Source of the DNA: Anadara kagoshimensis
Taxonomy: Eukaryota > Mollusca > Bivalvia > Arcoida > Arcidae
Assembly: GCA_021292105.1 (NCBI GenBank)
Contig: CM037874.1
Span: 27,907,083 to 27,971,082, forward strand
DNA: 64,000 nt
Direction of reading: 5' to 3'
Shown here: positions 3,534 through 38,900 of the stretch, piece by piece
Numbering within the stretch: position 1 is the first letter of the stretch
Layout of the letters: the number at the start of each line of letters is the position of its first letter
Position numbers and translations under genes: made by a program
The notes under the pieces: generated by a model
Databases searched by the model: none
What the model saw: only the letters and a program-made list of their open reading frames with translations
What the model was told of the DNA's origin: nothing

Positions 3534-16475
<12,942 letters not shown>

Positions 16476-17642: not shown

Positions 17643-17766
17643 ATGGAGATCAAGTCGGTTTTAGGGTTATATCTCCCCTGGGTAATTGTTCTGTTACTAC
17701 ACAGATATTATCCTCATACTGATATTAATGACAGCATCAACATCATATATGAACCAATCCACATTG
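17643..17766 (+). CDS. Signal-peptide first exon 1 (candidate for carbonic anhydrase)
   Basis: ATG opens 41 residues. They begin MEIKSVLGLYLPWVIVLLLH, a basic start and a strongly hydrophobic core, and continue with a polar stretch ending EPIHI. One extra base precedes a GTAAGT donor (phase 1). It can join the phase-1 acceptor at 38604 to give ...IHI-G-NEWDYEG. No body exons of a separate gene were seen in the next 20 kb, and no clear TATA box was found. The polar tail after the hydrophobic core is longer than in the other candidates. Functional use is inferred. Confidence 0.5.
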
Positions 17767-17779
17767 GTAAGTATTTTTT

Positions 17780-18057
17780 TTTTAATTTGAACCGTTTTAA
17801 TGTGTATTTTTGCGAATATTATTTTTTCCAGTAGTCGAACACTGCTCAGTAAATCCTTGCTGAAGAGAGCAAGTGCTCATGTCATGGTTATCTTAATTTT
17901 CGAAATTGTAGCATGCAATGCACAATGAAGCACACATCAATTAGATATAATAATAATATTATTAACAATAATAATAATGGAATACAATATACATGTTATA
18001 AAGTTGCCATGTTCTCAAATTTTGACATTAAAATATGTTAATATGTTAATATATATA

Positions 18058-18108
<51 letters not shown>

Positions 18109-18900
18109 CAATTTGTAAATCTTTCAGTATTATTCCATTCAGAATTGGAAAAAAATATATATGTGACAAAGTTAATACATTACGTGGATTGGTATTTTAA
18201 AGGGATACATGCGAGTTGCCCCTCTTTGATTAAACCTTAATCCTATTTAAATATTGGAGAGAGAGAGAGAGAGAGATAGAGAGCGAGAGAGAGAGAGAGA
18301 GAGAGAGCATCTGTCTATAAAATAGGCCCGTTCAGACTTGTTTTAGACTTGACAGTCCTAACTTGCATTAAATTGAAGCAAGCATTTTATATAATTATAT
18401 GACACCTACACTTGTGTTTTACTTACCTTTTTACTTGTATATATCTAGGTCACTCTGTATACCCGAGTTACCTCCGTACGCAATGTCTATACATGTATTT
18501 GAATGGAACGTTTCGTCCCCACTATTAGCGAATTTCTGTACTATGGTTCGTATACACCATACTTTGTAAAGTAGACATCTTCAATAATCCACATAAGTAC
18601 GCATACATGAAAATTCGTTTACGACGCAAAATATTATATTTGTCAGATACGTAATAATAAGCCATTGAACATTTCGATAAAATATAAATTAAAGCTATAT
18701 ATTTCTGCACGTTTGTTTTACAAGACTAAGGCGTGTGCTTGTTGAAGCTTTCATAGTGACCAAATTGATGAACATCTCTAATAAAATGATAAACTATAAC
18801 ATAAAATATAAGATTATGAGAACACAAGTAAAACTTCAAACCAGTGATGCATGTGAAATCAATAACTTCCTCAAGCCCAGGAACAACCTGTGTTGTGATC
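17780..18900. repeat. AT- and GA-microsatellite-rich stretch
   Basis: Contains (AT)n at about 18057-18106 and an interrupted (GA)n at 18256-18307. No exon was recognised. Confidence 0.7.
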
Positions 18901-19070
18901 TCTCTCTCTCTCTCTCTCTCTCTGAGCCTGGGTGGCAAGGTGGTATAAAACCGGCTTACGGATCACTGCCTCTCATCTCACTGTCCACTCAAGGAGATTC
19001 TAACATGAGACGGTGTGACAGTTCGTATACCGAGTGTCGGCGATTTCTTCAAGACACTCCGGTTTCCTCA

Positions 19071-19121
<51 letters not shown>
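18899..19121 (+). repeat. Two (CT)n tracts flanking a 150-bp insert
   Basis: (CT)n at 18899-18923 and at 19073-19121 enclose a unique stretch with the phrase GACACTCCGGTTTCCTC. A similar phrase also appears near 36655, so the insert may be a fragment of a dispersed repeat captured between microsatellites. Confidence 0.7.
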
Positions 19122-19122
<1 letters not shown>

Positions 19123-19139
19123 GGGATGTGTTTTGCTGT

Positions 19140-20520
19140 GATGAAATAAGTGATTAAATTTTAATCATTTGACTAAGCCAATAGAATCTTTCTGAATATC
19201 CCAAATTTAATCTTGAGTTTTTAAAATTATATTTTGAATCAGTAACCGAAAATTGGGTGCATTGAGTACTGTTTCTACATAGCTGTAGGCGACCTCAATT
19301 CTGGTCAATAATGAAAATATGCACCGTAATCCGAATTTATTGAAAAAATGGCAATTAAACTATCGACTCTTAATATGGTCTCATTTTCTCGAAATTAAAA
19401 AAAGGTTGTATAAAAATTTCTCCTCGACATGTAAGTATCATACACATATAAATATTTTGAGTTAATAAAATTTCAAAAAACTAATAACACCTTGTTATTT
19501 AGAGGTCTCGACCAATGAGTTTAAAAATCTTATATGTCTGTTTTTATGAAGAAAATATTAAATAAAGATACCGTCAGTGTAGTCACATTTGTAAACTTTA
19601 ACTTTCTGTTATGACACAAGCTTAGTATACTCTCAAATAAAGTTCAATTGATCGAGAAAGATAAAGATTACAAGAAAACGGAATGTAATTTGTTTCTCAT
19701 TATGATGTTATTTTAAATCTTTATTTTGTGTGTGCCTTTAGATGAACTGTAATAAAAGGAACGAGGGAGGAATACATAATGATGTATCATAAAGCTGATT
19801 TACAAATGTATCTATTGTAGTTATTCAAAATTTAAATATAGTTTTATTTATCACTCTTGAAGTTTAGACGTGTATTTGTACTTACATGCATTTTGAATTG
19901 CGCGTACTTGGCAATGCCATAGCAACCTGGGACATGCTACAGGTAACGAAATAAGGAACAAGATAACAGATGAGAATAGAAGTATCGACTACGGACAGAC
20001 GCGGGACAAAATGTCACACCCTCTCTCTCTAACCGACAACTGGTATATATCGATGGTGTTCAGAAAACAATTCGGTCTACAAATTTCATTTTATCTTTTA
20101 TAATGCCATTGAGATTATAATGCAAGGGGCGTATAGTCATTGGCTGTTATACGTTAAAGGCACGTTTTGCGATATCGAAAACGACACCATAACAGAATAA
20201 ATGAACACCTCCAATAAAACCGGAGATGATAAATGTTTTGGTCAATATAATTAAAGCAAAGGTTCTTGTGTTATACCAGTATTATAAATTGTTACTTGTT
20301 TTTCGTGGAGCCTTTAGAGAAACTCATTTTATTTAGTTATAACTTAGGATCTCGGTCAACAAAAGTGCTACATTTTATTTTTGAAGTTTTTTACAATAAA
20401 AATTAGCCCCGAAAAATGATTGTCGCCGTGCACATTTACACATCGATGCCAGTAATATTGACCGCCAAGAGCATCAAAATTTGTGGAGTTCTAAAAAAAA
20501 ACCCTTTACCTTTGTATTGA
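19140..20520. other. Gene-free stretch
   Basis: AT-rich sequence in which I see no exon, RNA gene or clear repeat structure. Confidence 0.35.
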
Positions 20521-20523
20521 AAT

Positions 20524-20736
20524 ACTGTAAATATTTAATTTCGCATGTATTTATTTTCGCGGTATAGGATATTTAGACATATCTGCGTAGTTAAATTTTC
20601 GCGTTTTTGAAATATGCTCTATAGCATAAAAGGTAAAATATAATTTTCGCTTTGTATTAATTTTCGCGCAAAACAAACTCCCGCGAAATAAGCAAAAATT
20701 AGTACACTGCGAACATAAATTACGTTTACAGTATGT
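20524..20736. mobile_element. Palindromic MITE with TTTCGCG motifs
   Basis: It starts ATACTGTAAATATTTAATTT and ends TTACGTTTACAGTAT, which are inverted relative to each other. The inside is rich in TTTTCGCG and CGCGAAA motifs. Relatives lie at 35972-36220 and 48621-49035. Confidence 0.6.
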
Positions 20737-21194
20737 CAAATGTGATGTGATCTAAGACAAGGTACATGTAGATTTTATATAGGAAACTGAACAATTAATT
20801 CTTTACGAAATAATATGACATTTTTAGTACTTGGCTACTTTCAAATTTTTACACCATTAACAGTTGAACATTTCACTAATAGCATTGATACAGCAAATAT
20901 TGACACAGATGCGGTGATTTTTGCACTCTTTGTTGATCGTTTCTGCTTGAAATGGACCGATTCTCACACTTACCAGAAAATAAACAGAAAACTTGAAACC
21001 CCGAAATTATCCCCATACCAAAAATACACGAAAATAGCACACATGCCGATAACTAGTGGCGGAAACACCATTTTTGTCAAATCTGGTGATATATTTTAAC
21101 ATCGCATTAGTGAAGACCATGGTACGGGGGAACTTACAAAATACCCCGATTGTTATTCAAGATTTATGTAACAGCTCATTTACTTATAAAGAAT

Positions 21195-21280
<86 letters not shown>
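21195..21280 (+). repeat. (CAA)n(TAA)n microsatellite
   Basis: About nine CAA units run into about 19 TAA units. Confidence 0.9.
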
Positions 21281-21281
<1 letters not shown>

Positions 21282-21477
21282 CTCAATTCTCTATTATATC
21301 AATAAAAATAAATAAGAACTTCTTTCATGCCAATAGTCTAGTAAAAAATGTTATATGAAGTGTCAATAAAACCAGTATCTTTATTAAGTTATAAATATTT
21401 CTATCATTGTAGAAGGATTAAAATTGAAGTAAATTCAAACTAGCAATCATAAAATTAATATATGTAGTCCAAAGGTC

Positions 21478-21525
21478 CGTATAACTCCCGTATAACCCCC
21501 GTATAACGCCCGTATAACTCTTGTT
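21478..21525 (+). repeat. Short CGTATAACTCC-type tandem repeat
   Basis: Four near-copies of CCCGTATAAC at 11-12 bp spacing. A small local tandem with no other context. Confidence 0.6.
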
Positions 21526-21605
21526 TAATGGATAAACTTTCCGCTCAGCCGAAGAACATCCAAGGCGGGTTTATGAGATGTTTCTTCATATCTTAGCATA
21601 AAGGT

Positions 21606-21815
21606 CAGACCTGTCGAAAGTTTAACACTGAGCTAACGAAAAGTTCGGCTACTGGGTGGCTGAGATATTATAGCTAGCGACCGAAAAGCGGGCGAGAAAT
21701 AGATAACAGCTACCGAAAAGTTGTCGAGGTAAAGGGAACGAGGTATCGAGATAAATTGCCGATTCTGGCACTAGTTCGATAGTTCAGTGTTAAACTTTCG
21801 ACAGGTCAGTACTGT
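21606..21815. mobile_element. MITE family A, intact copy
   Basis: Ends GACCTGTCGAAAGTTTAACA and its inverted copy TGTTAAACTTTCGACAGGTC (21794-21813). The inside has CGAGAAATAGATAACAGC and CGAGATAAATTGCCG. The phrase TAAAGGTCA lies on both flanks and may be the target duplication. The terminal 35 bp is the same sequence as the unit of the minisatellite at 34606-35197. Confidence 0.8.
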
Positions 21816-22081
21816 AAAGGTCAAAGAACAAACGGTTTGTAACAATGAGATTGGAGAACATTAACATGGATATTTGTATTTTTCTCGAACTACTATGACC
21901 CATTATTATCACTAAATTGAACATATAACTTGAGTTTTTACACTTGGCATGGTACATTTAAAAAAAAAACTTTATCGTCATGCCATGAAAAAACGTCAAA
22001 CTTACTTAACCTATAATGATCTTTGTGTTCATCAATTTTCATCGGAATGGAAACAATTCCTCGGAATTTAGTTAATATACT

Positions 22082-22090
22082 TATATATAA
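22082..22090 (+). promoter_or_regulatory. TATA box upstream of first exon 2
   Basis: TATATATAA lies 52 bp before the ATG at 22142, a spacing that leaves room for a short 5' leader. Confidence 0.45.
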
Positions 22091-22141
22091 GTAATAATAT
22101 ACACGCTTATGTTGGAGTTAGAATTCTGTGTAACATGTAAG

Positions 22142-22226
22142 ATGGGGATTTGGGTAAAGAAAGGCAGTGCTATTCAGTTTGTGTTGTGTATCCATTTGTT
22201 TCCTCGTTTGGTATTTGGGAGTGCAG
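22142..22226 (+). CDS. Signal-peptide first exon 2 (candidate for carbonic anhydrase)
   Basis: ATG opens 28 residues: MGIWVKKGSAIQFVLCIHLF and then PRLVFGSA, with a basic n-region, a hydrophobic core and a likely GSA cleavage site. One base then precedes a strong GTAAGT donor. Phase 1 matches the carbonic anhydrase acceptor at 38604. A TATA box lies upstream. No body exon of its own was found before 38604. Confidence 0.6.
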
Positions 22227-22239
22227 GTAAGTCATGACT

Positions 22240-23270
22240 GGTTTTAACTTCTCTTCTCTCAATTGAAGACAATACATGCATGCAAATTTTAAAAATGAAT
22301 GCATAATATTTGAATTTCATGATTTTTAAAATTTTGAATGTTTGAAAGTAAAAAATGCCCATCCTATTTGTGCATAATGAATGCATGATATCTGAAATTA
22401 AAACAAGAGAGTTTTTAACGGTAGATAACGCCGGGTAATCGCGATATCACGTATTTAAAATGTTTTAAAGTTAAAAAAACATCCTAGTATTTGTTTTTGA
22501 TCTTCAGAGATGCCTTTACAATGAATTGCGTATGTTTGATTTTGCCTATTTGCATAATGTTAATACTCGGATGGTTTTGAAGTATGGATATGAAAGGTAG
22601 AAAATTCAAATTATTTGTAAGAAATTTTATACTTCATCACAATTTTAGATTATTATTATTATTTTTATGACAAACAATTTGCGCATGCATTGCATAATGT
22701 GCAAGATTGTGTAGCAATTAATGCATTCAGTCTCGTTTCGTCTTTGTGAAGTCCATTTTTTTTAGCACAAAACAATATACTTTGCATTTCAACTACACAG
22801 AAATGTATTGACTGTATTTAGGATTATTTTTAAATTGAGTGATGTACAGTTGTCGATTTACATTGTTTCTTCATATGCTATTTTTTAATTACCAGTTTTA
22901 TCAATGTGTATAGCTTGCAATGTTTTCCTACTCCCATTACTCGTTCGACTATTCATGTTCTTGCAATTGGCTATTACAAAGTATATGTTTTGTAACTAGA
23001 AATTGTTTTATTTCATTAAATGATTTCTGCAATATATTAAAATTAGGAGATGGACGTCCACAGCTGCCCTCTTAGGTTAAGAAAATAGTTGGTAAATGAA
23101 ATTCAAAATGTTATTAAACTAAAAGTATTTAATATAAAAAATAACAGCATTGACTTTACTGCTTTTATTTAGTAAGAAATAATGTGTACATTAACGGTTG
23201 AACACAAATTTCAAAATATCGCTAATAGCACAGAATACAAACTTGGCCAACCAACTTGTTAAGTCAAAGG
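22240..23270. other. Gene-free AT-rich stretch
   Basis: Nothing recognised beyond isolated AT-rich runs. Confidence 0.35.
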
Positions 23271-23280
23271 AACTTTAAAG

Positions 23281-23535
23281 AGCCAGGCTCCAGTATTACA
23301 ATCATTCCTTAACTAAGATTTTCCTTAACTTAAATCTGGGAAACTTGAAATCTTAATAATTTTGCGAATTTTCAAGATATTGAGGAATTTAAAAGATTAC
23401 TTCTAGATTAGATTACATTTGCATTTAGTTTTGGCAAAAATATGCAGCAGTAGTTCCAAAAAGAGATGACAAATATCTGCTAAATTTAAGTAAAGGAAAA
23501 TCTTAGCTAAGGAATGATTGTGAAATTGGGGCCTG
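23281..23535. mobile_element. MITE family B, copy 1
   Basis: Inverted ends: GCCAGGCTCCAGTATTACAA followed by TCATTCCTTAACTAAGATTT on the left, and the complement AATCTTAGCTAAGGAATGAT followed by GGGGCCTGGCTCC on the right. About 255 bp. Other copies are at 41624, 57958 and 60375. Confidence 0.85.
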
Positions 23536-24100
23536 GCTCCAGATTTCGCAATCATTCCTTAACTTAAATTTCCGTTGCAATTTAAAATCGTAATAATTTT
23601 GCGAATTGTTAAGATAATTAGGAATTTAATATGTCGTTTTACAGACCACTTAAAGCTTAAAACATCTGCTTTTTGTTTCGTCAAAAAATGTACATCCATA
23701 GATACAACAGAGATTATCAAAATTTACTTTAAGTTAAGGAAAGTATTAGAAATCGACATGAGTTTTAGGTTAACTCTCTTCATAGGAATAAGGTGAGCAT
23801 CTATCTACTCATTACTTTATTCACTTTATTCTGTCAGTGTTCCTAACATACGTTAACGTTAAACCTGGAATTTAAGTTTTCAGAGACTAACAGATGAAAA
23901 TCTGGCTAACGGGAGGGGTAATTTAATGTAAAACGAAGGATTAACAACAGGAATGCGGAAATGAAAAGAAAAAAAATTGCGGAAAAATCATTTTATTCTT
24001 GCGGAAATGACATCTTTTTTTGCGGAAAAATCATATCAAATTACGGAAATGAAATGCACCGGTTAAGGAATGATTGTGAAACTGGGCCAGACCCAGACTG
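23530..24100. mobile_element. MITE family B, expanded copy 2
   Basis: It shares the left end TTTCGCAATCATTCCTTAAC and the right end GGTTAAGGAATGATTGTGAA but is about twice as long. Inside are several TTGCGGAAATGA motifs at 23950-24050. It abuts copy 1 directly. Confidence 0.6.
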
Positions 24101-24617
24101 ACATCAATGGGATTAATTTAAAAGTCAGCTTTAAGATAACGGACAGACTGAATGCAATAATAAAAATCTCCATAAAAGATATACAGTGTCTCCAATGTGA
24201 ACAAAGTGATAAAGTGGGAGGTACGATTTAGAGCGGTATGTGCCAGTTTTTACCAAATAATGAGCAATAAAAATGCAGGGTTAAGCCATTTTAACTTTTC
24301 ATGATACATTTTTAGTCGTAAATGTTTCGCGGAGAAGTACATAAACATATTATTTATTTTGAAGTGTATTATAATAATTATAGCTACATATAGAATCTGT
24401 TTATTGGTTTTGGTGTATATATGACCCTTTACTACCGTATAAACAGATTATAAAAATATTTTGAAGTTAATACCAATCCCCATGTAATCGAGTTATTTTT
24501 CCATATTTCAAACGTTTGTATGTAAGCTATCACTTAGCAAGGTTAGGATCTATCTATTTGTCACATACCACCTTTTGAATTTAATCATAAAATGCATTTA
24601 AAAAATACCACTTATCA

Positions 24618-24925
24618 GGGTTTTCAGAAACTTTTATGGGCGTCATCACAGTACTGTTGATAAATTTGATGTCTCTGTGTCCAGGATTACCCTAGATATA
24701 TTTGACGTCCCATAGTTCCAAGTTCCTTTCACACAATTTTCATTACACACGTGGAAGCTGTAGCTAGCTAAACAGCACATGCTTACCCTTCCGGAGCACC
24801 CGGCCTCACTTTCCTGCTGGAGGTTCCGATGTTTAACCTAATTTGTCAGTTTCAAAGTTTTAACTTTGCTTCTGGATTGTGATTCGGACATGGATTAGTA
24901 TGTTTGCTTTTGATTATTAAAATAT
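24618..24925 (-). mobile_element. Repeat family F, reverse copy
   Basis: Reverse complement of the 11178 copy: GGAGCACCCGGCCTCACTTT, then TCTGGATTGTGATTCGGACA and TGGATTAGTATGTTTGC. Near full length. Confidence 0.75.
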
Positions 24926-25193
24926 ACGCGATGTAACGATTATTTTGGAAGGATGTAATAGACGAAGATTAAAGTTAGAGTAACAAAACGAAGGCTGGGA
25001 AACGCATAAAAACCAATATGTCAGCCACTCCGTTTGGGGACATAGTAACTTATATATACTAATACTATCGCTACGTGATGCGATTTATGCTTTGCACTTG
25101 CGAGACTTAAAAGTCCTGTTGACATCGTCGTTGAACATATTGGTGAACACGTTTTGGTAAAGGTTTCCCCAAACTTATAATTGATAGTTTAGT

Positions 25194-25290
25194 TCCATCA
25201 TTTCAGTTTCAAGGGTTTTTTTTACCTTGCTTCTGGGTTGTGAGTCGGACATGGATTAGTATGTTTGTTTTTGATTACATACCGTAGTCA
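25194..25290 (-). mobile_element. Repeat family F, short fragment
   Basis: Only the TTGCTTCTGGGTTGTGAGTC ... GGATTAGTATGTTTG end is present. Confidence 0.6.
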
Positions 25291-25595
25291 TTGCTTCAGA
25301 TCATACCCGGATTCCTTTGATATATCATTTACTGAGTGGTTACAGATGCTCCAAAGAGAAATATCTTTGCACTGCAATACGAACACCAAACGGCTTGTAA
25401 GCTTATATATAGCTTATGCAGAATTGCATGGTAAAATAAAGATTTACCAACGATTTAAGTTTCCCTAAATCTTTTTGGATTCAAATAAATTTTAAAAAAT
25501 ACCGAAGTCTTATGCACATAAATTGATACACTGAACATTTTAAAAATGGCGCGAAAACTATGACGTTTTTTCTTTATTGGTCGCATCTAAACCAT

Positions 25596-25885
25596 ATGAC
25601 ATCAAAAACAAACATACTAATCAATGTCCAAATCACAATTTAAGAGCAGAGTAAATATTTTGAAACTGGTAAATTAACTTAAACGAGGAAAGTGAGACCG
25701 GGTGCTCCGAAAGGTTAAGCACCTCTTGAAAAATAGCTAGCTACACCCGCTAAGTGTGTAGTCAAAATTGGGAATGAGAAGAACATGGTGCTATGGCATG
25801 TCAAATATATCCAGGGTAAATTTAGATAAAATACATCATACTTTTCCATAATATTGTGATGACAGTCATAAAAAATTGAGGGTCT
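25596..25885 (+). mobile_element. Repeat family F, forward copy
   Basis: Begins ATGACATCAAAAACAAACAT and runs through GGTTAAGCACCTCTTG to the GGGTCTTCATAAGCC end. Confidence 0.75.
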
Positions 25886-26072
25886 TCATAAGCCAAAATT
25901 ATTACATTTTATCATGCTGCACATTTCTCCAATCATACACTATGCAGTCATATAAACTTTGCATAAATTTGCTTTTAAAGTCGTTGTCAGTTCTGACTTT
26001 CGGAAACAACAAAAAATTGGATTGTGACAGGCATGTGCTATAGTTTTTTTCTGAAAATTTCTTATTGTACCC

Positions 26073-26150
26073 AGTGGCGTACCGCCCTATACGCAAAAAC
26101 GCAAGTGCGTACACATAAATTGGTCTCAAAAATTATTTTAAAATAAAAAA
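26073..26150 (+). mobile_element. hAT-like element terminus
   Basis: CAGTGGCGTACCGCCCTATA has the CAGTGGCG start typical of hAT elements. A piece of hAT transposase follows about 1.1 kb downstream in the same direction. Confidence 0.5.
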
Positions 26151-26156
26151 AATTAC

Positions 26157-26165
26157 GAGAGAGAG

Positions 26166-26207
<42 letters not shown>
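26157..26207 (+). repeat. (GA)n(GT)n microsatellite
   Basis: A short GA run followed by about 19 GT units, inside the hAT-like remnant. Confidence 0.9.
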
Positions 26208-26210
<3 letters not shown>

Positions 26211-26662
26211 CAAAGAGGTATGGCGGGTTTAATAGGCGCTTTTCACATTGCCCCCCTGCTTGAATGGATGAACGACGTAACGGTGTATTTTTAAACACTT
26301 GAGGATTTCGAGTTCTATTATTAGACCAGGTCTATGAAAAACAAGCGCTTCGTTTGTGTAAACTTGTTTTCCTTGAAGAGCCGAAGATATTGAACAAACC
26401 CTAACATCCATAATCTTCATTCTTCATCTTTATACAATAAACAGAAAAACTTGAACAATAAAGTATTAACTTCACTAAGAATTCACGAGTGATGTGTGTA
26501 GATTAATCACTAATGTAACCTGGCTTGATCTGCTAGTAGTGTTTCGAAAGAAGATAAAAAACGTTCATTTTTAACTAATATTTGTAAAGGAAAATTTTTA
26601 CAATAGTATTTTATAAAGATAAAAATTAAAAAAAAATAATAAGAAGAATAAATAAAAAGATA

Positions 26663-26732
26663 TCCCGAATGGGAATCGAACCCATGCCGTACAGCTTGCA
26701 AATCGTCCTCGCTACCCACTGAGCTAACCACA
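26663..26732 (-). mobile_element. tRNA-like sequence, probably SINE head or pseudo-tRNA
   Basis: The reverse strand reads GGTTAGCTCAGTGGGTAGC ... GGGTTCGATTCCC, i.e. A and B boxes. The 5' GTGGTTA cannot pair with the 3' CGGGATA, so a functional tRNA is unlikely. No other copy was seen here. Confidence 0.45.
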
Positions 26733-27178
26733 ACAGTTAATACCAGCCGTGTTAAAATGCAACATCACTTATATGTGCAATGGTCAGTTTTAATTTTCCC
26801 TAATTTTCAAAAATTTACCATTTTCTCCTAAGAGGACCATTTTTTTGAAAACTCGTAATGATTGCATTTTAAAAATATTTTCAGACACAATAACGTAAAA
26901 AATGGTCTTCCGAGGAGAACACTTTGATAATAATTATCAAAGACGGGAAAATCCCTTCATTTTTCATATTTTAGCATAAATGAGCACAAAGATGGGCTTA
27001 TTAAGAAAAACACCAGTAAAATATACCTTTGTATGAGCCAAAATCTGAAAGTCCACATAAAATACTGCCGCTTAATTATTTAAGTGCAAGAATATTTAGA
27101 CTTTTATTTTTCAAAAACTAAAACGGTCCATTTAGGACAAAATCTCATCAAACCCGCCATACCTCTTTTCCGGCTAGT

Positions 27179-27397
27179 TTGTATGGAGCCGTTATCACCA
27201 TGCCCCCTACAACAGCCACTGCCGAGAGAAGTTTCAGTGCGCTGAAACGTCTCAAAACTTATTTAAGAAGCACAATGAAAGAAGATTGTCTTTCATCTCT
27301 TGCATTAATGCACATACATCATGAGATGGACGTCGACGTAGAAACAGTTATTGACAAATTTAACGCCCAGAAGAAGAGGAAAGTTAACTTCGAATGA
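27179..27397 (+). pseudogene. hAT transposase C-terminal dimerisation-domain fragment
   Basis: About 70 residues with PPTTATAERSFSALKRLKTY followed by LRSTMKEDCLSSLALMHIHH. The AERSFSxLKxxKxYLRSTMxxxRLxxLALxxI pattern is the hAT family dimerisation domain. It ends at a natural stop (TGA after NFE). The catalytic part and zinc finger are absent. Immediately upstream, at 27151-27169, is one arm of a 19-bp inverted repeat whose other arm is at 26213-26231. Confidence 0.8.
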
Positions 27398-28060
27398 CCA
27401 ATAAATACTAATATACATTTGGAAACCGTGGGCTACGATTATTAAAATAATCTCAAAATCTTAAAAATACTAATTCAGATTTCAATAAATTATGCATTAT
27501 CATTTGTAATCGGAGCTAAAATCTGAAAATCTTTCAAATTATCAAACCAAACGAACTTCTACCCCTTTCCTTTGCCACGGGAACATATTGTGCGATGTAG
27601 AAATGCTACAAATTAATATGTAGCTTCCATGGAGTGTTTTAAATTAAAAATGGTATAATACGTAATGCACCGCAAACGAAGTAAGGGGAGGTTTTTACGA
27701 ATCAGTCGTCCGTCTGTCCGCCCTGTATTTAAAATGTTGCAACATATAAGTTGTCATCTATATCAGTGCATTAATTAATGAAATTGGCCTTATTTCTGGA
27801 CGATTTTGTCATAAATGTCGCCAAATGAGTACAATCATTTTATTTGCGATGGTTGTGTCCATTATTTTTAACTGCATGGTATAAAATAAAACATGTCCCG
27901 GAAAAGTACACCGTCGAGTACCAGTGACACAGACCCTGAGGGGTATAATATTTATTTTTAAATTACGATTATTCTTTTATCTGTTATCTTGTATCAAATT
28001 CCCATATTTCGTGTAAACGCGTGTAAAATGCCGTCGGCTTTCCGCCATAGTCAAACTGCC

Positions 28061-28170
28061 AAAAAATCACGTACACTATGATCGGGTTTGCCATAGCCAG
28101 ACTTCCAAAAATCACGTACACTATGATCGGGTTTGCCATAGCCAGACTTCCAAAAATCACGTAGTACATT
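28061..28170 (+). repeat. 45-bp tandem repeat
   Basis: Two and a half units built on GGGTTTGCCATAGCCAGACT and TCCAAAAATCACGTA, with one diverged unit before them. Confidence 0.85.
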
Positions 28171-28504
28171 GGGCATAAGCAGAATAACAGCTGTAAAAAC
28201 AAAAACAAAAACGAAAATAAAATAACTCAACATACAAATGAGTCACTTCATAACATATCGCATGTATACCGCGTTTTAGTATATAATTTCTCATTAATTG
28301 TATAATCTGATCAAGAAAATCTAAAGGGATAAAAACAACATAGTTACTGCTAGTTCAAGTATTAAGAATAAAAATTTAAAAAGTTTTAAAAAAGAAATAA
28401 GGAAAATAAGATCCACCAGATAATTGCATCAAATACCCAAAAATGAAAAATAGAAAGCATCAACGAATAATGTACTGAATATTCGACCTGGTAATAAACT
28501 AGAA

Positions 28505-28735
28505 AAACTGTGAGCCACAAGCTCACAAAAATACCCCCCCCCCCCCCACATAAAAAAAAATCCATCGGATAAAATTTTTAAATAGGAAGTGCACATCTAC
28601 ATTATATCACAAAGATTGTGTGAAAGTTTCATGAAAAACCATTGAAGGGTTTAGGAGGAGTTGCGGATAATAAACGGACACCCCTATCCGTGACTATATA
28701 TATACCCCCCACTTTTTAAGCGGGGGGTATAAAAA
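28505..28735 (+). mobile_element. Dispersed repeat family C, copy 1
   Basis: Opens CTGTGAGCCACAAGCTCACA and closes CCCCCCACTTTTTAAGCGGG. It contains AACCATTGAAGGGTTTAGGA, GGAGTTGCGGATAA and a C-run at 28541. A reversed copy is at 63238-63490. No ORF. Confidence 0.8.
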
Positions 28736-28864
28736 TATAATTTTTAGTTCCACTTGAAAGTATGCCATGTTGAAAAAAACAATGAATTCCATCGTAAAAT
28801 TTGAAGAACATCGCTAGAAAAAGTGTGTTGACCAGTGAAACTGTCATTTTTATATTAAAATACG

Positions 28865-29324
28865 GTGCTCAGACCAATTTTAATCAAATAACACGTTTAC
28901 ATAAATTGCTATCATTTTAAATTGTGGTAAAAAGGCCCGGGTTGTTAAACATTTTGCAAGACTTTACTTGGTGTGTGGAAAACGACATGTGGCATTTTGG
29001 TTTATTTTAAAACAGCACGGTTTCCTTTACAAGTATACATGCATCTTCGCGTTGTTAAATATTGGCCGTTATAGAGAGTTTATCTGATTGTTATGGGCAG
29101 TTTCTGTAGCAGTTATAGACAGTGGTTAATTTTTTCATATGGTATTGTCAAATAAACAATGTTTATAAAAATTATCTGCTTCTTAGATTTTAAAGTTCCT
29201 TAAAAACTAAACTGGGCTTAATCATTCTTAGTAATGGTTTAGGTGGATTTGGTAGTCCTTCTGTTTTTTTTTATTTCAACATCTTTATTCTTTTTTGGAT
29301 TTCAACAATTTTGGTCTGAGCACT
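28865..29324. mobile_element. Possible TIR element GTGCTCAGACCA
   Basis: GTGCTCAGACCAATTTT at the left is mirrored by AAATTTTGGTCTGAGCAC-type sequence ending at 29324. The inverted match is only about 12-13 bp, and no target duplication was seen. Confidence 0.4.
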
Positions 29325-29544
29325 AATGATATGGGATTGTATTCCGAAACGCCCGTCTAGTATTGGAAAATTAAAACAAGTTTATTGACAGTTACCAGTA
29401 TCTCAAAGAACAATTTTATGCAAACTGCTTTTTCGTTTTTAAAGACACTCAGTTTTTTAAATTCAGTACGTTGTTAGGAACGGTATAAATAAATGAAAAA
29501 CCATAAGTCATTTACTCTACGTTGGGCTACAAGCAAAGTCCAAA

Positions 29545-30130
29545 CATCATAGAAACAAGAATGTGCAAACAATATGAAACTCATCATAGTGCAAATAATA
29601 TGAGCTTCAAGCATGGGGCAAACAACACGGACAAAATAATTTGTAAACAGTATAGGACACCATCATTGTGCATCCAGCATGAGCCATAAGCATGGTAAAA
29701 CATCATCGAAACAAGAGTGTGCAAACAGTTTGAGACACAAACATGGTGTCAACAATATGAATCACAAGCAAAGTGTGAACGGCATGAGCCACAAGCACGG
29801 TGCAAGCAGTATGGACCACAAACATTATATACAAACAACATCGACCGCTTACCTGTTGTGAACAATATGAGTCACAAGCATAGTAATAGAGGTACGAGGC
29901 ATAAGCAATGTGCAAGCAGTATGAGCCACAAGCATGGTGATAACAACATAGCTCACAAGAATGGTGAAAACAGCATGGACCACAATCATTGTGTGAACTG
30001 TACGAACCACAAGCATGGTGTAAACAGTGTGAGCCACAAACATAGTGCAAACAGTATAAGCCACACGCATGATGTAAACAGGATCAAGCATTGTGGCATT
30101 GTGCAAACAATATGAACCACAGACATTGTA
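29545..30130 (+). repeat. 30-bp minisatellite
   Basis: About twenty diverged copies of a 30-bp unit near CATGAGCCACAAGCATGGTG followed by CAAACAGTAT. Because the unit is divisible by three, several frames on both strands stay open. One gives a 10-residue repeat with SHKHG and SMDHK motifs. There is no splice site, no signal sequence and strong unit-to-unit drift, so I treat it as non-coding. Confidence 0.85.
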
Positions 30131-30499
30131 CAAAGAGCATTTGTACCGGAACATTGAAAGATTGTTGTTAGTCTAGAATCGAGGGGTATTGAAGAGAATT
30201 TTTTCAGCAGCAAAATTGTTTATGGTTGAAATTGTTTTTGAGCGGATTTAACAAACGGCTTCATTATTAGAAATAAAACCGATAGCAATCTTTCCCGAAC
30301 TATTTTGAATGATAAATGTCATTATTTCCCAGGTCCACCGTTTTGTAACTACAGCCTGTCAGAACACGTGCTATATTGCTATTATAACATACATACCTAT
30401 TATGTATCATGGACCAAGAATGTGGTGATAAAGAAAACTTTGGCCAGCGGTCATTTTGTGGTATATCAGTACTATTAAATGAAGCAGGTGTGGATGGTG

Positions 30500-30870
30500 A
30501 CCCTATCAAACTGAATATTGAAGTGTTTTAACTATATATAGATAAAGAAATTGACCAATGCTTGAAAGTCTTTTTAAGTGTCAAGGTTTTTTCTCAAATA
30601 ATATATTCACAAAATCATGTGACAATAATGATGATGACCCTATCAAACTGACCATTGAAGTGGATAAAGAAATTGACCAATGCTTGAAAGTCTTTTTAAG
30701 TGTCAAGGTTTTTTCTCAAATAGTATATTCACAAAATCATGTGACAATAATGATGATGACCCTATCAAACTGACCATTGAAGTGGATAAAGAAATTGACC
30801 AATGCTTGAAAGTCTATTTAAGTGTCAAGGTTTTTTCTCAAATAATATATTCACAAAATCATGTGACAAT
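30500..30870 (+). repeat. 122-bp tandem repeat
   Basis: Three near-identical units. GAAATTGACCAATGCTTGAA recurs at 30548, 30670 and 30792. The unit is not a multiple of three, so the apparent protein repeats shift frame at each unit. The first unit carries an extra TTTTAACTATATATA variation. Confidence 0.92.
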
Positions 30871-30934
30871 GATGAGGAAAAGGTCTCCCCAGTTCGTTGT
30901 CTTAGCCCAAAGCATCTTGTGTATAGATTTCTAA

Positions 30935-31960
30935 GGAGATAATATCACTGCGATTTGAATATACATGATAATAATAATACATTACTGAAAGCGAAACACG
31001 CGCTTGCTATATAACTGAAGGAAATATCACAAGAAATTAAAAGTGACAAATAGGGGAATAAGAGTTCTATCATATTATCAATTTTTGTTTTTTTATTCAG
31101 AAAATTCAAAAACCTTTTAGTATGACATTTCCTCTATAAGTCGATACTTTTAGTATAAAGCAAACTGGCCTGGGACTCTGCTGTATTCTAGGCTCATAGG
31201 AAATGTTGGGTTGATCTGGACATTACCAAGTACATTGGAATTGATTCATCTTCTTTGTAATTCTATTACATTGAAACATTTCTGAGACCCCGAATTTTGT
31301 TTTTAAAAGCCATCGTTCAAAAGACAGCAACATGCAAGCGTTTGGAAGATGTTTACGTGTTTCACTGGTTCAGTTTAAACAATATTTTGTAGCGGACCAA
31401 TAGCTTTAGTTACACGAACTGAATGATTTTTTTTAATTTCATGCGAGAAAAACTGTTTGGCATTTGTTTAAAGTTTGAGTGTATATGGTTTTTTTTAAAT
31501 TTTGACTAAGAAAGTCTAAAATTGACGGAATCAAACCATTTCGAACATTTCTGTCAAAAATTCAAACACTTTGCATGAAATTGAATATAATGGTTGGGGT
31601 ACAAAAGAAAGTTTTACCTTAAAAAAAACACCGCCTAACTCAAATATCTGAAACATCTAACTATATCAAATATGGTCCAAATATTTAGAAACATTGAACT
31701 GTAACTTATGGATTTTTCACCTAATGAACTATTGGACATGTAGACATAAACATTAAATAGTTCCCAGAAATAGCAACAAAACCTAAACAGGAATAGTAAA
31801 ATTTTGTCTGGGCGGTTTTTAAGATTCACTTTTTTTCTAAAAATAGGAATAAATTTCTTAAAATAACCATGTAAAATAATATTTATAAAATGGTCCTAAA
31901 ATTCCGGTGATCATTTTCGATCCACGTGACCGATTCGGGGTAGATGCGTCAGGTTGATAA
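30935..31960. other. Gene-free stretch upstream of the first-exon cluster
   Basis: AT-rich with no recognisable exon or repeat. It precedes the TATA box at 31973. Confidence 0.35.
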
Positions 31961-31972
31961 AGCCGGCCATGG

Positions 31973-31979
31973 TATATAA
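31973..31979 (+). promoter_or_regulatory. TATA box upstream of first exon 3
   Basis: TATATAA within CCATGGTATATAATG, 82 bp before the ATG at 32061. Confidence 0.55.
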
Positions 31980-32060
31980 TGTTGGTCACTTAGGTTTTAT
32001 TTTCACTTTTTGTTTCTCCGGTCGTTGGTCGGTCCTTTCCTGTTGTCGGGTGGTTACAGC

Positions 32061-32142
32061 ATGATTATAAGTATTATAATTGTGTTAGAGGTGGTAGGTT
32101 TGACCTTTGCTGGCACCATCACTAAAAAGCCTGAAAATCACG
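32061..32142 (+). CDS. Signal-peptide first exon 3 (candidate for carbonic anhydrase)
   Basis: ATG opens 27 residues: MIISIIIVLEVVGLTFAGTI and then TKKPENH, followed by one base and a GTAAGT donor. The hydrophobic core with FAG is a good signal peptide and cleavage site, leaving a short basic/polar tail. The phase-1 end fits the acceptor at 38604. A TATA box lies upstream. Confidence 0.62.
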
Positions 32143-32493
32143 GTAAGTCATTGTATATATTGTCTCAGTTTCGAAATGTTCCTGATGCACATTGTATAAC
32201 CAAGATGTTCCTTCATACAAAATTTCAATTTAAATAGTTTTGCTAGAATTTAATCAAAGCATTTAAGTTTTTAACCGAAAAAGTAAATTTTGAAATACAA
32301 CAAACATCACTAAAACGTAGCTTAAATCAATACATTATAAAAGAAGTCTTAGTTAAAGAATGATTCTGAAACTGGGGTCTGCTACTTTTTGTCTTTGTAT
32401 AATTTGCCTCAAAATTGAATGTCTTTCTATTTAAATCTTAATTCATTAATACTCAATTATTAAAATTTAAACTATTACTTTGATAATTTTTTT

Positions 32494-32503
32494 TTCAAAA
32501 AAA

Positions 32504-32534
<31 letters not shown>

Positions 32535-32535
32535 C
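32494..32535 (+). repeat. Poly(A)/(AT)n tract
   Basis: About 24 A bases followed by AT units, between first exons 3 and 4. Confidence 0.85.
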
Positions 32536-33543
32536 TTAATTTTGCATTTACAAATATTTTAAGACATATTTAAATAGCTTAATGTTTTAAACACATCGAA
32601 ACCGCATATTTTAAATTGGGGAATTGTCATTTTTCGCATAACATTTTTTGCCTTTTTGAAATTAATTCGTGTTCAAACCGTTTTAACTTTTAATCGCTAG
32701 TAACTAAATAAAAATTATTTTCATGACGGCTTCTTTAATTATTCGGTGTAAGATCAGCTTTCGATTGAGTTTATAGAAATCTGTAAATCGTCCAGACCAA
32801 GTAGTTATGTTTTTGGTTTACTGAGAGCTAAAGTTGGGCAGCAATTATATTTTCAGCAGTCAGTATAAAACAGCATCCAAAAATGTAAACTTGGAGCTGG
32901 TCATGTTAAAAAACCTTTATAGCGATTTAAAATTTGTTACAGATTTTTTTAATTCAAAAGAGCTAAAATTTTATAGAATTCCTTTGTTTTAAAGATAAAC
33001 GGTTTCAAAACAGCGTTTTTTCTTTTCTTCGTTTTCTCCTTTTTTTAAAATTAATTAATTTATTTGTCATATACCATGTTTGTATATAATAATAAAATAC
33101 ATTCAACAATGGTATATGACATTTTTGAATGTATTTTTAAAAAAATTAAATTCAAAATTGGATTAGCGATTGGATCGACCCCAAAGGACGGATTTAGTTG
33201 TTCATACTCAAAAGGTTCATAGCAACAATGCAATGATAGCCCTATAAACTCAGCGACGGTGAACAAAAGCACTGCAATGGCAACGTCTTGACTTTTACTA
33301 TTACTAATTATAATCATTTAAGATCTTATATATTTATGGATTATTGTGCTGAAAAATCAAAATGGTTTTCTTCTGTACTTGATGTAAACCATTTATGGGG
33401 TAGAACAAATCTATGCGTTGTTACATAAAAATTGAAACATAATTAGATAAAAACACAGGTAAATTCACGCCATCGGGTTATTGATACATTTTACACCTCA
33501 AGCATCAGATTCGAGATATTCAGAAGATAACGTGTGTTTAAGG

Positions 33544-33550
33544 TATAAAA
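33544..33550 (+). promoter_or_regulatory. TATA box upstream of first exon 4
   Basis: TATAAAA in AAGGTATAAAACG, 79 bp before the ATG at 33629. Confidence 0.5.
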
Positions 33551-33628
33551 CGAATTGAATTTCTGAATTTATTTCTTTTTGTTTATTTCGTTGTGCATGT
33601 TTTATAAATTCGGGAGGGAGGATAAACT

Positions 33629-33695
33629 ATGTTATTATTTGTTATTTTTCAAGTTCTGTTACCAAATTCTGTGTACGGCGGTGTTGGACATCTAG
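33629..33695 (+). CDS. Signal-peptide first exon 4 (candidate for carbonic anhydrase)
   Basis: ATG opens 22 residues: MLLFVIFQVLLPNSVYGGVG and then HL, with one base before a GTGCGT donor. The core is very hydrophobic, with likely cleavage after VYG. The phase-1 end matches the acceptor at 38604. The donor is weaker than in the other candidates. Confidence 0.55.
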
Positions 33696-33779
33696 GTGCG
33701 TATTTTTTTTAGCAATATCGATATCTATGAACTTGTTAAGCGTGTCCACTTTGAGAGTAATTATATAATCGGTCGCTCC

Positions 33780-34600
33780 CTTTGCCACCAAGAGTCCGAA
33801 ATCCATTTGGTAGGATTCTAATGTTGATAGTTTGTGGCCAGCATCGGCTTGTTGGAGGTCAGTAGGTTTCTTCCAGAACGATTCACTTCGTCACCTCCGG
33901 ACTGGCCATCTCATCATGTAAAACACGTTTGCTTTACACTTATGGAGTACCGAAGCACATTTTGTATTTGTCATAGCTTAATGTAAAAGTGAACGCCAAA
34001 TGTCAATGTTGTACACTTTGGTTTTTTATGGATATTGTATTGAAATTTTTGGTCTATATGAAAAAAAAGTCGAACTATGCTATCTTCCGACGAATATGTT
34101 TCGCGTCTATTTTCCTGGATTCTAAGAGAATCTTACATCTCATGTTTCACCGAGCTCTGTTATATGATGGTTTGACAGTACGGTTGTTGTGTCAGTAACA
34201 CTGTGTATTTTTCCTACATGTTATATTTTTAATGTTTTAAAGCCAATTTGAAAGCTTTTACGAAATACTGTCTACTGAAAATGATTTGGACGGGTTTAGC
34301 GCATGTCGGTGTTTGAATACCGTCATAGTGATTTTGGTATAGTCTGAGTGAAATATTAAAATAATAATAATATAAGAACTTATAAAGTTTTGAATATTCA
34401 TTTCATGTTTGGACTTTTTAGTTGTAATAATGTACTTATTTTCATACATTTGTGATGTATTTTTATGCCGCCATACAATTTATATTGTCTTTTGTAACCC
34501 ATAAGTGTACGCTTTCTGTAAATAAAGAATTGAATTGAGTTTCAGAAAAAAAAAACATTTATAAGAATATGACAGAAAAGTAAAATGGTTCATGTCAATG
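33780..34600. other. Gene-free intronic/intergenic stretch
   Basis: Contains a phrase near 33850-33900 (TTCTTCCAGAACG) resembling dispersed sequence elsewhere in the window. Otherwise nothing recognised. Confidence 0.3.
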
Positions 34601-34605
34601 TGAAA

Positions 34606-35197
34606 CTACAGTACAAACCTATGTAAAGTTTAACACTTAGCTACAGTACAGACCTGTCGAAAGTTTAACACTGAGCTACAGTACAGACCTGTCGAAAGTT
34701 TAACACTGAGCTACAGTACAGACCTGTCGAAAGTTTAACACTAAGCTACAGTACAGACCTGTCGAAAGTTTAACACTGAGCTACAGTACAGACCTGTCGA
34801 AAGTTTAACACTAAGCTATAGTACAGGCCTGTCGAAAGTTTAACACTGAGCTACAATACAGACCTGTCGAAAGTTTAACACTAAGCTACAGTACAGACCT
34901 GTCGAAAGTTTAACACTGAGCTACAGTACAGACCTGTCGAAAGTTTAACACTAAGCTACAGTACAGACCTGTCGAAAGTTTAACACTGAGCTACAGTACA
35001 GACCTGTCGAAAGTTTAACACTAAGCTACAGTACAGACCTGTCGAAAGTTTAACACTGAGCTACAGTACAAACCTGTCGAAAGTTTAACACTTAGCTACA
35101 GTACAGACCTGTCGAAAGTTTAACACTGAGCTACAATACAGACCTGTCGAAAGTTTAACACTAAGCTACAGTACAGACCTGTCGAAAGTTTAACACT
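34606..35197 (+). repeat. 35-bp minisatellite built from a MITE end
   Basis: About seventeen units of GTACAGACCTGTCGAAAGTT followed by TAACACTGAGCTACA. In the middle of the array, units alternate between CTGAGC and CTAAGC, making a 70-bp higher-order period. The unit is the same as the terminal inverted repeat of MITE family A (21606, 57050), and the array runs straight into such a MITE at 35163-35375. Confidence 0.93.
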
Positions 35198-35375
35198 AAG
35201 CTAACGGATTGGTGCCAACTCATCCCGACCATTCTTTAGCTATATCTTGGCAACTTTTCGGCAATTGCTATCCATCTCATGGCAACTTTCTGGCAAGTAA
35301 TCATCAATGTATTGACCACTCGACAGCTGAACTCCATCTTTTTGTTAGCTTGATGTTGACAGGTCTGTACTGTAT
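35163..35375. mobile_element. MITE family A attached to the minisatellite
   Basis: From the last 35-bp unit, the sequence continues CTAACGGATTGGTGCC... and ends GTTGACAGGTCTGTACTGTA, the inverted terminus of the family. So one terminus is single and the other is repeated about seventeen times. Confidence 0.75.
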
Positions 35376-35785
35376 GCAAGTTATTGATGGAATGTCACTA
35401 TGTTGCTATATATGCAGTCAAAATTCATATTTTTAATATAAAACAAAAATGAATATTAAATATAATATGAAAACGAAATAAATATAGATAAAACGCCTAA
35501 TAAACTCTTAATATGAGGTCAGCCCACGTGATTGGTCATTTTATCAAGTTCCATACATACCACGAAATATTAAGAAATATTATTAAAGGACCATAGATAG
35601 AACTCCTTTCTTCTATAAAGTCACAATTCGTTTTTATTAGATAAAACCATGCGCTGATACAAAGATCAAAAGAATGGTCAATAAAAATATAACTTTAATG
35701 AAATCGACGTATAAATAAATTTTGTCACATTTAATAATATCATGTTTACAATATTCTTAAAACTTGAGTTTATGTAAAATTATGG

Positions 35786-35793
35786 TATATAAA
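35786..35793 (+). promoter_or_regulatory. TATA box upstream of first exon 5
   Basis: TATATAAA in ATGGTATATAAACTG, 61 bp before the ATG at 35854. Confidence 0.55.
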
Positions 35794-35853
35794 CTGTATC
35801 GAATAAAGAAAAATAATTATTTTTCAAACATTAATCTTAGTGTCTGGCTGGAA

Positions 35854-35929
35854 ATGATCACCCCGGGCAGATTTGGTGCACTGGCATTCATTGTCGCATT
35901 TCTTGTAAATCTTTCGAATGCGACTTTGG
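35854..35929 (+). CDS. Signal-peptide first exon 5 (nearest to the carbonic anhydrase body)
   Basis: ATG opens 25 residues: MITPGRFGALAFIVAFLVNL and then SNATL, plus one base before a GTAAGA donor. Hydrophobic core AFIVAFLVNL with likely cleavage after SNA. Being nearest the body (2.7 kb) and having a TATA box, it is the default first exon in the carbonic anhydrase model. An in-frame upstream start at about 35764 is unlikely because it would place a polar segment ahead of the signal. Confidence 0.68.
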
Positions 35930-38900
35930 GTAAGACAAGTTATTAGTTTTCATATTTACAATTACAATACATTATTGTAAATCGTGGAATTTTCGCGCCA
36001 GGTTATTTTCGCAAGGATTGTCTTTTCGAGCTATTTGTGTACTTTTATTTTCGCGCCGAATATCAAATGCGCGAGAGTAACAAGAATATTTTATTGTGAT
36101 ATAACTTGCCGACTATTATCTCAATATAAAATATTCGCAAACGTTTTATTTTCGCATGTTGTTTATCTCGCGAATTTCTGCGAAAAAAAGAACACGAAGT
36201 TGTTATTCGATGTACAGTATGGCATATATCACTGATGGAGTTGACGAGGTTACAACTTTTATTTACATTTTAAGAATTATTTCACACAATCCTTATAAAA
36301 AGTCATGCATGTTCTATAATTAAAATATTCTTATAAATAATTCATAAATAAGCATGACTCTGGATATGTATACATGTTCCCTTTGGGTGTCTGACTAATG
36401 ATGACTAAAGGTAAATCAGCTTAGTATTAAATAACTTTAAAGAACAACATACACGCGTGCATGTGAACGAATTTCAATTGATAATGTTAAAATACGGAAA
36501 AAAACTTATGTCATACCCCGGGATTACAGGGGTGAACGCTTTTGATATTTTAGCTTAAAGCTTGCGCATACGGATCACATTGCCTCTCACCACTAAGGCC
36601 CCACTTGTAAAAAAGTTTGTTCGCTTCCCAAACGGTGCTTTTCTTCCAGACAATACTCCGGTTTCCTTTACCATCCATTTGATATTTTGATATTAATTAA
36701 AAGGACAAATATGCTAGCAGATTCGTCTTTCCCTGGTACCATCAAGAATTATTCAAACGTAGGAATTGGAAAATTATTCATAAAATGAATATCACTAGTA
36801 GGGAATTGGCAATGCATTTAATAATTATGATGACTCCATTTAAATTATGAACTTCCAACAAGTAATTTGCGAATATGGTAATTTTCCAGTTCTATCATTG
36901 GCGTTAGTCATGGTATCGAGAAACCACGATGGCGGGATGTCTACAGAAATCGGCGTTACAATTTTTTTTAAATATATCTTTACAATCATTTATAACAAAG
37001 AAGTTAGAATGAATTCCCATTGTCCTGAAAACCATAAAAACAAATTATTTTTATTTTTGAAGTATTTTTGTCTTCATTATCAATAAACCTTCTAATATAA
37101 GACTAACGCATAAAAAACAAAAACAAGTTTTCTCCAACTACGGCAACATTTTGCAATAAATAAATAAATAAATAATATTGAAATAAGATAATAATTAGAT
37201 AAAACAATACCGTAGAAATAAAATTACTAACAAAAAAGAGAATCGCGGGGGCGTGAAGAGTTGTCCGTTAACGAGGACATTTTTAAAAATGACCCTAATA
37301 ATGACCCTTGATGGTCACATATTGTCATGGCTGCAGGCATATAATCACCATCTTAATTGTCTCAGAGATGACATCATTATGTAGTACGTTGGAACTGTCA
37401 CGTAGGCACTGCTTAAAACATCGAACCAATTTAATTACAAAATTAAAACTTATACGAGAGTTGTCAGTTTGTAAATTTTTGAATATTTCATTCTGAAAAT
37501 TAAAACAAATTATGATATGGCACTTAAACAATCTACAATCATATTGTAATGTTTTGAATTTTCTAAATGAAATTTCCACTGGTTTGATAATAGATATTGG
37601 AAATTTGTAGAGATAACAGTTTCATCATTATTGCAAAGACCATACAGCGAGTAATGTCCTAAATTAAACTAAACTGAAATTATTTATCGCGTACTGCAAC
37701 ATGCTCACCGTGAAACTATTATGAACATTCTTCTAGTATTTTGGGGGATTTCATAGATAAAAAAAAACGACAGCATGGTGATTGTCCGAGTTTAACGTCT
37801 GCATGCCGTCTGTCAGCCAATATACAGACAACATGGGTTTTCAAAGCTCAATATGATTTCGAATACACATTATATATATAAGCTTGAAAAGAAAGGTAAT
37901 GTGTATTCGAGATATATTGCGCTATGAAAGATCAAACTTTTTAAAACATCATTGTTTAAACAGAAAAGTAGGGAAAAAAACTTTTAAAAAATAAGACTAA
38001 AACGGTTTGTAATGATCAGTCATTGCTCGTATTATCACAGATACCCGAAGTACGTTACTTATCCAACTTTGCAGCGTTCAACATTGAAAAAGTAACTATT
38101 ACTTATTCAACTATTATTACTCCCTTATTTTTCTAACGGTTTTTCTATTAACTTTTATAATAGTTCCGCAATGGCGAATACTTACTTATGCATGTGGTAC
38201 CAGGGAGGTGCATTGGCCACTGACAACACTCCTCCATCTGGTTCTATTCTGTGCTAATCTGACCAGAACTTGCCATTTGTATCCCTCTCTGTCCATTTCT
38301 GATTGCAGGTTTCTCCGCCAGGTGTTTCTTGGATGACATTCACAATGGCAATTACAACGTAATAATTCATCAAATAGTCCAAATTTATATAACTAATTCG
38401 ATGTTTTCTTTTAATCTTGTATTTTCAAACATCAACCATTCGCAAAAATAAAACTTGCATGATTGTAAACATGTTTTAAATCGTTCATTAAGGTATATAT
38501 GAATTTTACATGTTAAAGGATCAACAGGGCAAATCAACCACAAACCGCGATGAACAATTAAAAACTAACGTCAATTCTAAATGGCATTTTTTTTTATTTT
38601 CAGGAAATGAATGGGACTACGAAGGAGAACATGGTCCTGATCGCTGGTATTTAGACTTTCCAAAATGTGCCGGAACCCACCAGTCTCCGATCAGTATTAA
38701 AACTAACCAGGTCAAGTACGACTCTAAACTACAGAACATAAAACTACATGACTTTGACAACGTGTTTAACGTCAATATGAGCCTTACTAATAACGGACAT
38801 ACAGGTACTTGTGTTGTAAATGTTGTAAACAATGGCAATAACTGTTTGTTTGAAAATAAAACATAGATGTTAAAAGTCTGAAAAATAAGCATACAGTACA

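Follow-up and report, generated by a model that had tools for sequence, protein, structure and literature searches.

Five candidate signal-peptide first exons upstream of one carbonic anhydrase body in Anadara kagoshimensis

Carbonic anhydrases play a central part in calcification and in the control of acid-base balance. The locus described here raises the question of whether one enzyme of this family could be produced from several starts, each supplying a signal peptide of its own. The window, a stretch of 64,000 nucleotides (C18:27907083-27971082) from a genome of 1.115 Gb in 36 contigs, holds a single carbonic anhydrase body preceded by five short exons, which an earlier note had proposed to be interchangeable first exons.

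The carbonic anhydrase body and the exons upstream of it

A search of the whole genome with the PF00194 profile gave at least 88 exon-level carbonic anhydrase matches. Three of them lie in the window, all past 38.6 kb, where the body comprises the following exons:

38604..38804, + strand: body exon 1, the first common exon; phase-1 acceptor, preceded by TTTTATTTTCAG
39641..39789, + strand: body exon 2; holds QFHFHWG (two presumed zinc His)
40764..40856, + strand: body exon 3; holds MHIVHY (presumed third zinc His)
41996..42068, + strand: body exon 4
42655..42818, + strand: body exon 5; holds SLTTPP
43449..43679, + strand: body exon 6, the last; hydrophobic C-terminal tail, TAG stop

The six exons have AG and GT at their borders, and a stop codon closes the frame. 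The encoded protein contains a complete PF00194 domain (E 1e-92, profile positions 1-253 of 254), and its best match among solved structures is carbonic anhydrase XIV (E 2e-61), with which QFHFHWG, MHIVHY and SLTTPP align. We take the first two motifs to provide the three zinc histidines and SLTTPP to provide the active-site threonine. With its complete domain, zinc histidines and active-site threonine, the body is predicted to be an alpha-carbonic anhydrase. Its last ~20 residues are hydrophobic and, by eye, look like a GPI signal.

The candidate first exons e1 to e5 and their putative TATA boxes, with the state of each box in a duplicate locus described below, are as follows:

17643..17766, + strand: e1, signal first exon, MEIKSVLGLYLPWVIVLLLHRYYPHTDINDSINIIYEPIHI-G; long tail past the hydrophobic core, without a TATA box
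22082..22091, + strand: TATA box of e2, TATATATAAG, starting at -60; identical in the duplicate
22142..22226, + strand: e2, signal first exon, MGIWVKKGSAIQFVLCIHLFPRLVFGSA-G; highest donor score among the five
31973..31980, + strand: TATA box of e3, TATATAAT, starting at -88; identical in the duplicate
32061..32142, + strand: e3, signal first exon, MIISIIIVLEVVGLTFAGTITKKPENH-G; acceptor-like GGTTACAG directly 5' of the ATG
33544..33551, + strand: TATA box of e4, TATAAAAC, starting at -85; kept in the duplicate
33629..33695, + strand: e4, signal first exon, MLLFVIFQVLLPNSVYGGVGHL-G
35786..35793, + strand: TATA box of e5, TATATAAA, starting at -68; the 150 bases 5' of the ATG are identical in the duplicate
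35854..35929, + strand: e5, signal first exon, MITPGRFGALAFIVAFLVNLSNATL-G

All five exons are present where the earlier note had placed them. Each starts with ATG, encodes a hydrophobic signal sequence, has a length of 1 modulo 3 and ends in phase 1 at a GT donor (GTAAGT in three exons, GTGCGT or GTAAGA in the others), so that it joins in frame to the acceptor at 38604. Several coding first exons are therefore phase-compatible with one common acceptor, as is the case for alternative first exons. The fit itself has little weight, since in the compared paralogues, too, the first body exon starts in phase 1 (exon borders were read by eye), which makes phase a trait of the family. The glycine codon common to the five junctions, which had been offered as support, is no extra evidence: GGA arises automatically because each exon ends in G and the body begins with GA. 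Most donors follow an exon ending in G. The acceptor-like site before the ATG of e3 means that this exon could be a second exon.

The four TATA boxes that had been claimed were found, 5' of the ATGs at 22142, 32061, 33629 and 35854, and none was found at 17643. A TATA-like word 45-95 bases 5' of the ATG, an interval picked after the fact, accompanies 4/5 first exons versus 14.2% of 1284 ATGs in the window (P 0.0018).

The five exons do not look like copies of one another. This origin was rejected, as only short words are shared between the exons with their flanks, one of them a TATA word. Searched with 100-120 bases on each side (e4 as three pieces), the modules of e1, e2, e3 and e4 each occur at two places in the genome, namely the window locus and its duplicate; e1 to e4 are therefore not a repeat family at the level of DNA similarity, a level at which strongly diverged copies would escape.

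Conservation in an inverted duplicate and comparison with paralogues

The contig also carries, at a distance of 0.7 Mb and within C18:27190001-27226000, an inverted copy of window positions 147-44454; it was examined up to the end of that interval, and the actual copy may extend further. The BLAST chain between the two loci has 26,258 aligned bases and 5.3% substitutions. In the coordinates of the duplicate, e1 is at 9100, e2 at 13897, e3 at 20724, e4 at 22386, e5 at 24241 and the body at 27643. All five exons are present in the same order and without an indel, their ATG, open frame and donor are intact, and the four TATA boxes are likewise preserved. When five aligned blocks of the same lengths were drawn at random, the empirical probability that none contained an indel was 0.006. 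Exon e1 is 93.5% identical between the copies, as against ~80% in its 100-base flanks.

Synonymous and nonsynonymous changes between the copies number four and four in e1, three and two in e4, and six and five in e5. Exons e2 and e3 do not differ between the copies, and therefore permit no exon-level test of selection. Over the pooled exons, differences affect 13 of the 96 synonymous sites and 11 of the 333 nonsynonymous ones (pN/pS 0.24; Fisher P 0.0005), and nonsynonymous changes as few as those observed were obtained in 0.44% of 5000 runs of a neutral simulation (P 0.0044). Taken singly, e1, e4 and e5 have pN/pS values of about 0.2 to 0.3, with significance coming from the pool only. In the body, 29 of 186 synonymous sites and 1 of 723 nonsynonymous sites differ, leaving one amino acid difference in 303 residues. 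The synonymous divergence of the signal exons (13.5%) is similar to that of the body (15.6%). As judged from the substitutions between the copies, these comparisons show purifying selection at the protein level on e1, e4 and e5, as a pool only. Retention of the frames is by itself weak evidence, because 50% of neutral runs with the observed numbers of changes had no stop codon and 11% retained every ATG, frame and signal score.

We compared six paralogue regions with seven first body exons in total. Two phase-1 candidates, identical between the two copies, lie 5' of the body in the paralogue pair at C18:11.7 and 22.4 Mb. One candidate was found at C18:3.06 Mb and one in a region of C4 with two bodies, one of which had 4.9 kb of upstream DNA examined. 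The pair at C18:40.9 and 41.9 Mb has no candidate within ~20 kb. Five signal exons at one gene were thus not seen in the six regions compared (0 to 2 candidates each). A signal exon at a long distance from the body seems normal in this carbonic anhydrase family. Among 36 pairs compared, e2 showed a weak likeness (z 3.2) to the signal-peptide exon belonging to the C18:3.06 Mb paralogue.

These low paralogue counts would also suit an explanation in which only one or two of the first exons are used, for example e5 as the nearest or e2 with the best donor, the rest being relics or near-silent exons that survived a fairly recent duplication. The invariance of e2 and e3, a pS of just ~15% and the fact that neutral retention of frame and ATG is not unlikely point the same way. 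The pooled signal of constraint in e1, e4 and e5, the four TATA boxes kept in the copy and the lack of an indel in all five exons argue against it, and we consider it unlikely.

Chance expectation and the search for rival bodies

Could the five exons be chance open frames resembling signal peptides ahead of a GT? A scanner was applied that looks for an ATG opening a frame of 18-45 codons, a hydrophobic stretch rated on a hydrophobicity scale and a donor scored with a donor matrix; the main thresholds (hydrophobicity at least 2.0, donor at least 3.2 bits) were picked after the five exons were known. On the + strand of the window in phase 1 it returned six candidates, e1 to e5 and 1007-1070. Sixty second-order Markov sequences gave a mean of 0.48 candidates per 64 kb strand. 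Between 17.0 and 38.6 kb (21.6 kb), e1 to e5 are the sole + strand phase-1 candidates at the main thresholds, as compared with 0.28 expected. This expectation was derived from real DNA as a control, which gave 13 hits in 988 kb*phase*strand. The control DNA comprised the window and the paralogue regions P11, P03, P04 and P41 in every combination of phase and strand other than + phase 1, and did not include the duplicate P27 or the sister regions P22 and P40. At the loosest setting there were seven candidates (e1 to e5 and two others) versus 2.4 expected, and at the strictest thresholds only three or four of e1 to e5 pass. Across 20 threshold pairs, the Poisson P ranged from 0.03 to 3e-7.

The candidate 1007-1070 was rejected as a sixth exon: it is without a TATA box, and its changes between the copies (no synonymous, three nonsynonymous) give no sign of coding constraint. 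Such frames can arise without constraint and also persist in the duplicate.

The control hits and the neutral appearance of 1007-1070 are what speaks for a chance origin of all five. In view of the excess over expectation, the conservation without indels, the synonymous bias and the TATA boxes, we regard such an origin as extremely improbable.

Some of the upstream exons might instead belong to genes for short secreted peptides, or to undetected bodies lying between them, which would suit e1 in particular, as its long tail makes it the least like a plain signal peptide. The profile search of the genome speaks against this, and bears out the earlier note in its statement that no other carbonic anhydrase body lies between the exons: there is no PF00194 match from 17.6 to 38.6 kb. 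A coding scan ordered 765 open blocks common to both copies according to their synonymous bias, and the best 40 of them were considered. Ranks 1, 3 and 5 are body exons and ranks 2 and 4 are antisense frames of body exons; the three top blocks on the + strand are all exons of the carbonic anhydrase body, again contrary to a separate gene. In favor of one, the + strand blocks 21128-21196 and 36415-36555, both located between first exons or between these and the body, each have three synonymous and no nonsynonymous changes; their score (3.12) equals that of the genuine body exon at 41996. The power of the scan is limited, as shown by this tie and by real exons falling outside the best 40: e5 is present at 1.92, while neither e1 to e4 nor the 93-base body exon appears.

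Past 17766, four acceptors combine a pyrimidine tract with a phase-1 frame of 30 or more codons: those at 28051, 35240 and 38309, and that of the body, whose tract is the best and whose frame is the longest of the four. The acceptor at 35240 has no aligned counterpart in the duplicate. Those at 28051 and 38309 are kept there with short open frames, which would fit genes other than the carbonic anhydrase; against this, 28051 is inside a 45-base tandem repeat. For 36415-36555, the sole phase-1 acceptor found is pyrimidine-poor, and we consider this block an unlikely rival body despite its synonymous bias. In sum, the profile, coding and acceptor searches, within their limited power, found no convincing rival body between the first exons. 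As e1 to e4 also match only loci bearing a carbonic anhydrase body, we consider it very unlikely that any of the five belongs to another gene.

Proposed model and comparison with known systems

Sequence evidence supports the central claim of the earlier note, that the five are coding first exons of one body: the duplicate, the occurrence of e1 to e4 at two places and the failure to find a convincing rival body. We judge it probable that a single gene occupies the locus and encodes a secreted, possibly GPI-anchored alpha-carbonic anhydrase, with five alternative first exons spread over a 5' region of 21 kb. Each transcript would begin at one promoter out of several, of which four have a TATA box. 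The start codon and the signal sequence would come from the first exon in use, whose phase-1 donor would be spliced to the common acceptor at 38604. Any intervening first exons would be skipped, because as first exons they would lack an acceptor. The enzyme would be unchanged, while the time and place of its production, possibly differing between tissues or mantle zones, the signal peptide and a few mature N-terminal residues would vary. Exon e1 may yield an uncleaved form held in the membrane. The TATA boxes of four of the five exons, kept in both copies, suggest that each first exon may have its own promoter. A more elaborate scheme is doubtful: five unrelated promoter-signal cassettes of separate origins, assembled before one body and duplicated as a unit, with five regulatory programmes and a membrane-anchored, uncleaved e1 product.

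If all five starts work, the deployment of a near-invariant enzyme would depend on interchangeable promoter-signal cassettes and not on a separate paralogue for each tissue. The locus would then be a clear case of repeated promoter gain with new signal exons, with the duplicate as an internal test, and would caution that isoforms are overlooked by gene models that have just one 5' end.

At UGT1A and the clustered protocadherins, an array of first exons with their own promoters is joined to common exons. Their first exons encode large functional domains, whereas those described here encode a signal sequence and a few residues. The first exons of BDNF are mostly non-coding, while every candidate first exon here is coding. 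BDNF otherwise resembles the arrangement proposed here in having many promoters (nine) before a common coding body, the core protein remaining the same and the signal peptide being altered, as outlined in a passage of PMC5288359. The same source describes alternative promoters 1a/1b for the IgLON genes (Lsamp, Ntm, Opcml), where first exons with alternative signal peptides likewise lead into one GPI-anchored protein (PMC5288359). The IgLON genes differ in having two promoters and encoding mammalian neural adhesion proteins; here there are five candidates and the predicted product is an enzyme. The secreted alpha-carbonic anhydrases of Mytilus galloprovincialis belong to the same family and have signal peptides, and their secretion to the shell has been suggested (PMC6639325); unlike here, no alternative first exons are reported in the main text of that paper, where words beginning with exon- or promoter- are absent. 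Among the matches listed for open-licence PMC papers, there was no report of a carbonic anhydrase with alternative promoters or signal exons. Thus, alternative promoters with alternative signal peptides are already known from IgLON and BDNF, and five of them on such an enzyme look unusual.

An inverted duplicate and window stretches unaligned with it

Window positions 147-44454 recur as an inverted segmental duplication about 0.7 Mb away on the same contig (CM037874.1, 27190001-27226000). Near-identical pairing was also observed at other carbonic anhydrase loci of this contig, at 11.7/22.4 Mb and at 40.9/41.9 Mb. In their aligned parts, the window and the copy differ by 5% substitutions, and the two may represent an unmerged haplotype. 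Further features of the window:

1007-1070, plus strand: sixth open frame resembling a signal exon and stopping one base into a codon; also in the copy
27122-27397: partial C-terminal region of a hAT transposase (PF05699 match)
34606-35203: tandem repeat, 17 copies of a 35-base unit
45669-46577, minus strand: LINE-type reverse transcriptase frame (PF00078 match)

The stretch around the hAT fragment has no aligned counterpart in the copy, and was therefore either gained in the window locus or lost from the copy. The tandem repeat likewise lacks an aligned counterpart there; single copies of its core are also present near 21.6 and 21.8 kb of the window. By eye, similar-looking open pieces continue from the LINE-type frame to about 48 kb.

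Coding and non-coding divergence

Across the six common body exons (38604-43679) and the signal-peptide exons, synonymous divergence between the window and the copy was 13.5-15.6%. Aligned non-coding sequence in 17500-38590 had a substitution rate of 5.9%, lower by a factor of 2.3 to 2.7. This excess may be due to methylated exons, to gene conversion, or to constraint in introns. In the frame at 1007-1070, all changes between the copies were nonsynonymous, and a search for a TATA box before it found none.

The fifth signal-peptide exon

The fifth candidate first exon (35854-35929) differs from its copy at 11 of 76 bases, while the 150 bases upstream of its ATG, from 35704 on, show no differences (Fisher P 4e-6). 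The promoter may be under stricter constraint than the signal peptide; alternatively, the contrast may mark a border of gene conversion.
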